Source: Vulcanisaeta souniana JCM 11219 (GTDB taxonomy: Archaea; Thermoproteota; Thermoprotei; Thermoproteales; Thermocladiaceae). Taken from it: a DNA stretch of 64,000 nt. The notes beneath the pieces were generated by a model that was given only the letters and a program-made list of their open reading frames with translations, had not been told where the DNA came from and searched no databases. This document shows positions 5,960 to 40,747 of the stretch, piece by piece (position 1 is the first letter of the stretch; each line of letters opens with the position of its first letter). The stretch is taken from NCBI RefSeq assembly GCF_026000775.1, contig NZ_AP026830.1, forward strand, positions 1,015,056-1,079,055, read 5' to 3'. The position numbers and the translations under genes were made by a program.

Positions 5960-6013
5960 AGGTGAAGATAAGGCTGCTGCCTGATAAAGTGATGAGTGGG
6001 AAGAGCACTGAAT
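5960..6013 (+). ncRNA. Box C/D guide sRNA candidate (plus strand, beside thrS 3' end)
   Basis: The order and spacing of elements fit an archaeal C/D sRNA. Box C is gtgaaga (5962-5968, one change from RTGATGA), then a 12-base guide, box D' ctga (5981-5984), a 4-base spacer, box C' gtgatga (5989-5995), a 12-base guide, and box D ctga (6008-6011). An A/T-rich TATA-like stretch (aaaatttaatt, about 5926-5936) lies at the right distance upstream. Such RNAs assemble with L7Ae, Nop5 and fibrillarin to direct 2'-O-methylation five bases upstream of D or D'. The guides would methylate targets complementary to taaggctgctgc and gtgggaagagca; I could not place these in rRNA. No terminal stem is obvious. 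Confidence 0.6.
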
Positions 6014-29430: not shown

Positions 29431-29877
29431 CTACCTACTCCTCCTTGTTCTTCTCCTTGCGCTCTTCTTCTTGCCCTTGGACCTCGATTTCTTCCTCCTG
29501 CCCTTCTTCCTAGACTTACTCCTCGCCTTCCTAGTTTCCTCAACCTCACTCGCTGCCTTATCGACTAACTCCTTGATAATGCCACCCTCAATCCATGAAT
29601 TTGCCTTGCCGATTTCATTATCCACCAAGTCATTAATTAGGGACTGACCGACCTGGTCCACGCCAACCAATAACACCTTAGCAAGGGCCTTATTACCATC
29701 AAGACTTACTATACTTGAAAACTCCTCGCCAAGCTTCTCCCTAATGTACTTCCTCAACTTCCTATATTTCTCCTCGCTAAATCCCCTAACGTACAAGGTT
29801 TCCAACAGATACATTTGTTCATCCTTAGCAAAGATAAACTTCAAATCATCACCCCCAATATCCTTGATCACGTCCAC
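29431..29877 (-). CDS. Protein with highly basic Lys/Arg/Ser C-terminal tail, unrecognised
   Basis: A 148-residue protein. Residues 1-115 form a folded alpha/beta-looking region (LKFIFAKDEQMYLLETLYVRGFSEE ... VLLVGVDQVGQSLINDLVDNEIG), and the last 33 residues are almost all Lys, Arg, Ser and Gly (SRKKGRRKKSRSKGKKKS). Such a tail suggests nucleic acid or ribosome binding. The GTG at 29877 lies about 29 bases from ggtttattag on the minus strand, so it is probably leaderless. It lies just before the non-coding region that holds the C/D sRNA. I do not recognise the family. Confidence 0.75.
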   Translation of the reverse strand: MDVIKDIGGDDLKFIFAKDEQMYLLETLYVRGFSEEKYRKLRKYIREKLGEEFSSIVSLDGNKALAKVLLVGVDQVGQSLINDLVDNEIGKANSWIEGGIIKELVDKAASEVEETRKARSKSRKKGRRKKSRSKGKKKSARRRTRRSR

Positions 29878-29954: not shown

Positions 29955-30015
29955 GCCTTCAGTACTTAAAGGATTCCTCATCAAGTCAGTGAGGTGAAGC
30001 ATCTTCATCATTGTA
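29955..30015 (-). ncRNA. Box C/D guide sRNA with a 16S rRNA-matching D guide
   Basis: All four boxes are present on the minus strand. Box C is atgatga (30011-30005), a 15-base guide follows, box D' is ctga (29989-29986), then two bases, box C' tgatgag (29983-29977), a 14-base guide, and box D ctga (29962-29959). The D guide contains tccttaagt-type sequence: its tcctttaagt segment is complementary over ten bases to acuuaaagga of archaeal 16S rRNA, the conserved 907-926 region. By the N+5 rule the target is the second U of acuu (E. coli position 912). The D' guide (agatgcttcacctca) has no target I can name. A TATA element (ttatttaaat, about 30030-30040) lies upstream. Confidence 0.8.
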
Positions 30016-30236: not shown

Positions 30237-30543
30237 AGGCGGCAAGGACAAATAATGGAGCATAAATTTTTGATGCATTAAATATTGGTATTATTAAGTC
30301 AAATGAAGGGCAGTAATTGCCGCGAACCAATGAGCCACAAATACTTTTAACCATGTAATTAATCATGTAATAGGTGATGCAAGGACTTAAGTACTGATGG
30401 ATGAGGAGGAACCCACGTGCTGACCATTTCTTCAATCCTTGATCCTCGAACATGAACACTCATACCTTAATTAAATTACCAAACCCACATTACCCAAGCG
30501 TAACGAGTACCTCCGGGATAATAATCATGTTTATCCAAAGGAG

Positions 30544-30795
30544 TTATACTAGGCCTAATCGTCCAAGTAAGTCATAGGCATTGTTCTCCGGTGCTAGCTT
30601 AACATACGCCTTCTTTTCACCGGTCATTGTTATTAGTGTGTTCACACCTTCGACCTTTACGCCATAAGTCTTCTCAACGTAATCCCTAATTTCCTTCTTA
30701 GTGGTGTCCCTGGGCACGATTATGGTTATCTTATTCTCCCTCTCGGCAAGCCTAAGGCTCTTCTCTGTTAATACGAATCTCACTATCACACCCAT
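30544..30795 (-). CDS. rpl23: Ribosomal protein uL23
   Basis: Large-subunit protein uL23, 83 residues, normal archaeal size. Typical blocks are VIVRFVLTEKSLRLAERENKITIIV, KEIRDYVEKTYGVKVEGVNTLITMTGEKKAYVKLAP and a final DLLGRLGLV. It binds 23S rRNA beside the exit tunnel, where SRP docks. The ATG at 30795 overlaps the uL4 stop (TGATG), so the two genes are translationally coupled; the extra codon upstream (GTG at 30798) is not needed. It is the last gene of the uL3-uL4-uL23 operon; uL2, which usually follows, is absent here. Confidence 0.95.
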   Translation of the reverse strand: MGVIVRFVLTEKSLRLAERENKITIIVPRDTTKKEIRDYVEKTYGVKVEGVNTLITMTGEKKAYVKLAPENNAYDLLGRLGLV

Positions 30796-31625
30796 CACCC
30801 CATGAATAAGCCCTTTCTCAATTCTTCAATCGCGCCTAGGGTCCATAGTGTTAACCTACCAGGAACACCACCAGGCGCTAGGTATAGTACGCTAAGGTTC
30901 CTCACTGGGACCACATCAACACCCGGTAAATTCCTTGCAACTCTAATCACTGGCGAGTCCGTGGATGGCACAACAATGAGCACACTCTTACCCTCCTTAT
31001 ATCTTCTACCCCTCATCTTACCCTTGCCGGACCTGATCCTAATCCTTTCCGCAACCCTCTCAATGTCATCCCAAAGCCCTAATGACATGAGGGTCTTCTT
31101 GAGGTCTGTCATTACGCCTATTCTTCCAAGGTCATCATTAACCACTAAAGGTATCTGCGGAACCTTATCAACCAAGTGCCCCCTGGCGATCACTAGATCC
31201 TTTATTGCAGTTGATGCTATGGCAGACCTAATGGCCTTCCTACGCTCCCTCTTATTGATTTTCTCATGTAGGATCTTCTCAACCTTAGGTGGGTGGGCTC
31301 TCCTACCCTTGACAACGTTTGGCGCTATCCTTGCCGTTGGCCAGAGACTGCCCTTGACCCTGGGAACCCTGGCAATACCTAGTCCTATGCCGAAGCTCAC
31401 GGCCGTAGTTCTATTGCCAGCCATTGGGTCAGTGCCCTTGGGCTGTAGTCTAGCTGTTAAAGCACTGAGGTAAGCCCTTAGTATTAAGTCAGGTCTTATT
31501 GATTCGAGGAATTGCGGTGGCAGTGTCACATCACCAATGGTACTGCCACTTAGGTCGAACACCTTCACTGTAGTCGGCACCGTGTAGACCGGCCTTATCA
31601 GTGGTGATAAGTCTAGGGACACCAT
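30795..31625 (-). CDS. rpl4: Ribosomal protein uL4
   Basis: uL4, about 276 residues from the preferred start. The tunnel-loop region is RTTAVSFGIGLGIARVPRVKG, with RRAHPPKVEKILHEKINKRERRKAIRSAIAST following, both hallmarks of archaeal L4. Three starts are possible: 31661, 31631 (ATGA overlapping the uL3 stop) and 31625. A GGGTG stretch seven bases upstream favours 31625 (MVSLDLSPLIRP). It binds 23S rRNA and lines the exit tunnel. The gene overlaps uL3 by a few bases at its start and uL23 at its stop. Confidence 0.94.
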   Translation of the reverse strand: MVSLDLSPLIRPVYTVPTTVKVFDLSGSTIGDVTLPPQFLESIRPDLILRAYLSALTARLQPKGTDPMAGNRTTAVSFGIGLGIARVPRVKGSLWPTARIAPNVVKGRRAHPPKVEKILHEKINKRERRKAIRSAIASTAIKDLVIARGHLVDKVPQIPLVVNDDLGRIGVMTDLKKTLMSLGLWDDIERVAERIRIRSGKGKMRGRRYKEGKSVLIVVPSTDSPVIRVARNLPGVDVVPVRNLSVLYLAPGGVPGRLTLWTLGAIEELRKGLFMG

Positions 31626-40066: not shown

Positions 40067-40404
40067 CCTATAATGACCCCCCATCAAATCCTATACTCCA
40101 GAATACCCTAACTGTTTATACCGCTAGTAAACGGAAATCATCACCATTCAAAGACTTCAATACCCAATGCCATCAACAACCATACACGCTACTAATTTAA
40201 TGGCAACCATAAAACCAAACTCATCTGCATGAAACATACATAATCCATGATTAAACTCTCAATAAAGACACGCATTTTACCACAAAGGAAGAAGTGCTGA
40301 ACCTTATTAAAGTCATTGGTACTAAACCATTGGAAATATTAACAGAATCAAGCGTTAGGAATGACGATAAAAACAACTCACTGGCACTGAGAAACTAAAG
40401 GAAT
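40067..40404. other. Mostly non-coding stretch with a possible gene fragment
   Basis: This 338-base gap has no complete gene. Near 40265-40399 on the plus strand a frame reads HFTTKEEVLNLIKVIGTKPLEILTESS and stops, with no clear start; it has the look of an HTH regulator N-terminus and may be decayed. The rest is AT-rich. The 3' end of the SRP RNA gene (minus strand) begins just past it. Confidence 0.3.
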
Positions 40405-40725
40405 GGGACCCAACCCCGTGTATTGCCTTGGACGGTAAACTAGGATTCACGCCAGCCCGTTCTCCAACCGGCAACCCCCCTGAACGCGCCCACCCCGACT
40501 TAGGGCCGCTCCCTCCCGGGCCTAACCCGGTTCGTCGGGTTCCGTAGTCGACCAACCCTACGGTTGATCGGCTACGGCGTGGACGCCCCAGGGGACCGGT
40601 TATCATTGAGGTACTGGCGTGACCCTAGTTTATCGTCCAAGGCAACGCACGGGTTTCGGCCTCCGAGCCCATCGGCCTAGGTTTTGCCCAGGGGAGGGCT
40701 GGGTAGGCCCTCCAGGCCTGGTCCC
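40405..40725 (-). ncRNA. ffs: Signal recognition particle RNA (7S RNA)
   Basis: A GC-rich island of about 320 bases in AT-rich DNA, on the minus strand. Helix 8 has the conserved bulge/loop taggcccgggagggagcgg with a GGGA tetraloop in place of GGAA, the SRP54-binding site. Helix 6 has caacc-gtag-ggttg with a GUAG (GNAR) loop for SRP19. The long helix 5 pairs ccttggacgataaactag near the 5' side with ctagtttaccgtccaagg near the 3' side. The ends, gggacc and gggtccc, pair as helix 1. With SecY in the same window, it targets membrane and secreted proteins. Nothing in it codes for protein. Confidence 0.9.
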
Positions 40726-40747
40726 TTTGTTTATTTTATCGTTGGAG

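Follow-up and report, generated by a model that had tools for sequence, protein, structure and literature searches.

Does the intergenic gap between rpL23 and a neighboring 148-aa gene of Vulcanisaeta souniana encode a double-guide box C/D sRNA, and if so, which rRNA nucleotides would its two guides select for methylation? Double-guide C/D sRNAs have been catalogued in seven archaea (PMC4644070) and reviewed (PMC7994747). A first-pass annotation of the 64,000-nucleotide stretch of DNA analyzed here (the window) had proposed such an RNA at this locus, with a D guide directed at U912 of 16S rRNA (E. coli numbering), a D' guide whose target it called unknown and, possibly, a second, undescribed methylation.

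A box C/D sRNA gene in the rpL23 intergenic gap

The minus strand does carry the motif in the proposed place, at 30011-29959 (the C box starts at 30011 or 30008, depending on how the boxes are read, and the D box ends at 29959). Read 5' to 3' from 30011 to 29959, its sequence is AUGAUGAAGAUGCUUCACCUCACUGACUUGAUGAGGAAUCCUUUAAGUACUGA. The gap that houses it spans ~660 bp and is bounded by rpL23 (30544-30798; Pfam PF00276) and by the 148-aa gene (29431-29877), which has no Pfam match, is of unknown family and is followed by a thioredoxin-like gene. The upstream TATA box of the first-pass annotation was recovered as the TATA-like sequence TTTAAATA at 30036-30029 on the same strand; counted from first base to first base, it starts 28 nt before the C box of the 12-nt reading given below.

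All four boxes occur in the right order under two overlapping readings. The most obvious boxes, all on the minus strand, are AUGAUGA (C, 30005-30011), CUGA (D', 29986-29989), UUGAUGA (C', 29978-29984) and CUGA (D, 29959-29962), and they leave guides of 15 nt, whereas the C and C' boxes of relatives lie 3 nt further in, at AUGAAGA (30002-30008) and AUGAGGA (29975-29981), and leave two canonical 12-nt guides. Inter-box spacing of 10-12 nt is conserved in archaeal C/D RNAs and required for methylation (PMC3608112); the 12 + 12 nt given by the relatives' boxes falls within this range, and the 15-nt reading falls outside it. Among 31 distinct orthologs, the sequence aligned with the inner C box has the form RTGANG(A/T) in 30, and that aligned with the inner C' box is of RTGANGA type in 30, while AUGAUGA and UUGAUGA are found in 3 and 4, respectively. 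The D box is CTGA in 29/31 and CGGA in 2/31; the D' box, assigned from the sequence, appears in relatives as C-GA or in degenerate forms. Judging from these comparisons, AUGAAGA at 30008-30002 and AUGAGGA at 29981-29975 are more likely to be the true C and C' boxes. The first-pass annotation, which listed no coordinates for its four boxes, was right about their presence; relative to the most obvious boxes, C and C' probably move inward by 3 nt.

With these boxes, the D' guide would be UGCUUCACCUCA (29990-30001) and the D guide AUCCUUUAAGUA (29963-29974), both on the minus strand. The D'-C' spacer between the two halves, CUUG (29982-29985, minus strand), varies in sequence and length among relatives. 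A coding role for an overlapping 63-aa ORF was considered and rejected because of single-base indels in this spacer among orthologs.

Scanning both strands of the window for C/D architecture returned three elements, this sRNA and two others, against a mean of 0.025 per window in 40 composition-matched random windows. The covariance search with C/D models that the first-pass annotation had suggested as a check was run on Rfam; it produced weak matches to the element, and none of the families reached its gathering score. Such sub-threshold scores are expected, since the C/D class is defined by short boxes. Shared box architecture gives a weak match to sR41 (18 bits versus a gathering score of 54) and another to sR1 (13.5 bits versus 45), and the sRNA is a member of neither family. 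Only one match anywhere in the window exceeded the gathering score of its Rfam family, that to an archaeal signal recognition particle RNA at 40402-40728 on the minus strand.

Both of the other elements returned by the scan are on the plus strand. The candidate at 30374-30423 reads GTGATGC AAGGACTTAAGTA CTGA tgg ATGAGGA GGAACCCACGTG CTGA and has a weak match to Rfam sR5 (19 bits). In the T-arm of four tRNA-Leu, its D guide forms 11 contiguous pairs (9 Watson-Crick [WC]); this guide also forms 9 WC pairs with Lys and Arg tRNAs, and its D' guide forms 8 WC pairs at 16S position 1049. The candidate at 5962-6011, which reads GTGAAGA TAAGGCTGCTGC CTGA taaa GTGATGA GTGGGAAGAGCA CTGA, sits in a gap that precedes the 3' end of a minus-strand ORF of 624 aa. 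The two guides of this candidate match the organism's own 23S rRNA at 2674 (9 WC) and 2653 (9 WC + 1 G-U), 21 nt apart; it is possibly a 23S double guide, with tRNA-Arg as a rival target of its D' guide.

Two predicted targets 31 nt apart in 16S rRNA

The 2.43-Mb genome carries one 16S and one 23S gene. At 873-882 of this 16S lies ACUUAAAGGA, all ten bases of which are paired by the D guide in a contiguous WC run, as the first-pass annotation had stated. The guide nucleotide at N+5, five positions upstream of the D box, pairs with U876, equivalent to E. coli U912, and the earlier prediction of this nucleotide holds in orthologs as well. The D' guide is not an orphan, contrary to that annotation: when it was compared with the organism's own 16S, 23S and tRNAs, a check that the annotation had itself recommended, its best target was 16S G907. 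It forms ten contiguous pairs, nine WC and one G-U, with 16S 904-913 (GGGGUGAAGC); the G-U falls at N+3, and N+5 falls on G907, equivalent to E. coli G942. The N+5 targets are identical in the 12-nt and 15-nt box readings, and the pairing was unchanged when recomputed with the 12-nt guides. U876 and G907 are 31 nt apart, inside the 100-nt limit for double guides.

When aligned with an E. coli 16S copy that falls 23 nt short of the standard 1542, positions 876 and 907 correspond to its positions 889 and 919. We take 876 to be E. coli 912 and 907 to be 942, a numbering anchored on the universally used C912, and U912 lies at the base of helix 27 and G942 at the start of helix 29. Earlier predictions of archaeal targets called for at least nine consecutive WC pairs including N+5, a rule relaxed for double guides within 100 nt (PMC4644070). 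The D guide passes the strict rule, and the D' guide passes the relaxed double-guide rule only, as a G-U interrupts its run of 10. Two further sets of targets were considered. Those of the D guide in tRNAs were rejected, the best, of 9 pairs, lying in the 5'-flanking sequence of a tRNA-Arg gene, and 23S position 840, where the D' guide forms 10 contiguous pairs (8 WC), ranks below the 16S match.

How often such matches arise by chance was assessed by shuffling each guide 1500 times and counting as a success at least 10 contiguous pairs, at least 9 of them WC, running through N+5 in 16S or 23S. Singly, the shuffled D guide succeeded in 28/1500 trials and the shuffled D' guide in 227/1500, but none of 1500 paired shuffles placed both targets within 100 nt. 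The D' match is therefore weak alone, whereas the guide pair is strong. It is the proximity of the D' target to the D target, together with its conservation, that points to G907 as the probable D' site.

Conservation across the order

When 40 relatives were searched by BLAST with an 81-base query, orthologs came from two families of the order. In most of the distant relatives, the match was limited to bases 24-72 of the 81, that is, to the sRNA proper. One of the two, the order's other main family, is, we assume, the one holding Pyrobaculum and Thermoproteus. A sequence-only model built from 18 orthologs retrieved full-length copies (E <= 2.8e-11) from 33 of 45 genomes in the order; some of the 45 supplied sequences to the model and match by construction, and matches independent of model building include those in G029-G031, G033, G035, G037, G039, G040 and G042. 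Vulcanisaeta distributa JCM 11216 and other Vulcanisaeta are among the carriers, and the V. souniana genome has a single full-length copy. Outside the order, the model found a full-length copy in none of the 36 genomes of the class that were searched. About one-quarter of the genomes of the order, some of them incomplete assemblies, had no detected full-length copy, so the sRNA may be dispensable.

Conservation follows the predicted anatomy. Across the 18 aligned orthologs, the box cores, the D' core GCUUCACC and the D core CUUUAA are invariant, and variation falls at nucleotide 1 of the guide and in the spacer. Several orthologs have C in place of U at N+3 of the D' guide (GCUUCACCCC), which turns the G-U pair with 16S into G-C. 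A TATA-like element precedes the C box by 20-40 nt in 26 of the 31 distinct orthologs, compared with 7% for randomly chosen places in these loci, and the order rpL23, sRNA, 148-aa gene, thioredoxin-like gene is retained in several genomes of the genus.

Related and rearranged guides

Another family of the order has an sRNA with the guide pair swapped, seen in L034 (4660-4770) and L117: there, the D' guide AUCCUUUAAGUC is directed at 16S 912 and the D guide GAUUCACCCCUUG at the 942 region. Circular rearrangement of guides has a precedent in Mka sR88 (PMC4644070). L147, L149, L150, L151 and L154 contain a sister sRNA. Its D' guide (GCUUYACC or ACUUCACC) is related to the present one, but its D guide, ACUCCAAU, matches 16S AUUGGAGU, slightly further downstream; in G011, this sister is the sole match to the model. 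Outside the order, L148 (G064) has a different sRNA, in which a U912-type D guide (GGCCUUUAAGUG) is accompanied by a D' guide that fits 16S GAGUACGGCC just upstream, so that the same site is served with another partner. Besides L148, U912 guides with other partners recur elsewhere in archaea in L042, L043, L045 and L047.

The occurrence of the 912 and 942 guides together in both orders, along with the recurrence of U912 guides with other partners, raises the thought that selection has favored the pairing of these two guides itself, as a clamp over the 16S neck. We hold this only as a speculation, and a rather doubtful one; if true, such a neck clamp would imply that a guide pair for neck folding arose repeatedly or was circularly permuted.

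Proposed function and alternative explanations

We are highly confident that this locus encodes a canonical archaeal box C/D sRNA whose two 12-nt guides are predicted to direct methylation of 16S U876 and G907, a reading drawn from sequence comparison. The genes for fibrillarin (PF01269, E = 1.6e-102) and Nop5 (PF01798, E = 5.5e-68) are adjacent to each other. Once transcribed, the RNA, expected to be ~50-60 nt long, would fold into two kink-turn-like motifs, C/D and C'/D', and L7Ae, Nop5 and fibrillarin would bind both of them, giving an assembled RNP. With the D guide on 16S 873-882, fibrillarin would 2'-O-methylate U876 (E. coli U912), and with the D' guide on 904-913, it would act on G907 (E. 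coli G942). As the two sites lie on either side of the 5' strand of the neck helix, the pairing may also help to order the folding of that helix.

That last role could be the principal one, with the RNA serving chiefly as a folding chaperone that clamps around the 16S neck and with one or both methylations incidental or absent. A chaperone function has been proposed for double guides (PMC4644070), both guides touch sequences that bracket the neck strand, and guides to the same two regions recur in swapped order in L034 and L117. However, the N+5 nucleotides of both guides are WC-paired and conserved, as methylation requires, and the two roles are compatible rather than exclusive; we consider it unlikely that chaperoning is the main activity. 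We regard as distinctly improbable the proposal that the D guide alone is functional and that the D' guide has another target, such as 23S position 840 (its next best match) or an RNA, such as an mRNA, outside the searched set of 16S, 23S and all but ten lower-scoring tRNA genes. About one-third of catalogued sRNAs do lack significant complementarity to 16S and 23S (PMC4644070), but here the 16S match is the better one, lies 31 nt from the D target and has a core that is invariant in the aligned orthologs, and the U-to-C change at N+3 in several of these makes a G-C pair with 16S.

That the boxes arose by chance in intergenic DNA and give no RNA product is scarcely credible. Conservation extends across the order and is confined to the sRNA, the position of the TATA-like element is conserved, C/D elements are expected at a rate of only 0.025 per random window, and the joint target match was seen in 0/1500 shuffles. 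The reading that we prefer remains a double-guide sRNA for two 16S methylations. Of the second, undescribed methylation that the first-pass annotation had raised, a second site is supported as a prediction, but the D' guide that would direct it is the ordinary partner in a double guide.

Relation to known archaeal C/D sRNAs

In common with other archaeal double-guide C/D sRNAs, this sRNA has C, D', C' and D boxes, guides of ~12 nt and targets predicted by the N+5 rule. It also resembles them in having two targets <100 nt apart in one rRNA and in addressing the hotspot at the 16S neck and helix 27, and we see no mechanistic difference. The highest densities of predicted methylation in archaeal 16S are at helices 3, 18 and 27 (PMC4644070), and the predicted U912 and G942 sites adjoin that high-density region. 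Neither PMC4644070 nor PMC7994747 mentions the genus Vulcanisaeta or names position 912 in its main text, the per-site tables being left to the supplements. For Pyrobaculum, 110 families of C/D sRNAs are attributed to Lui et al. 2018 in PMC7994747. As far as that summary allows, one of these families is probably the ortholog of the present sRNA, because orthologs extend to the order's other main family, and the sRNA has probably already been catalogued in other Thermoproteales.

The sRNA is real and ordinary. It belongs to a large known class, is conserved throughout its order and leaves the understanding of C/D guides unchanged. What it adds is a well-supported guide for two sites of predicted 16S methylation, both close to the decoding-centre neck of an archaeal ribosome and, as a pair, conserved across an order.
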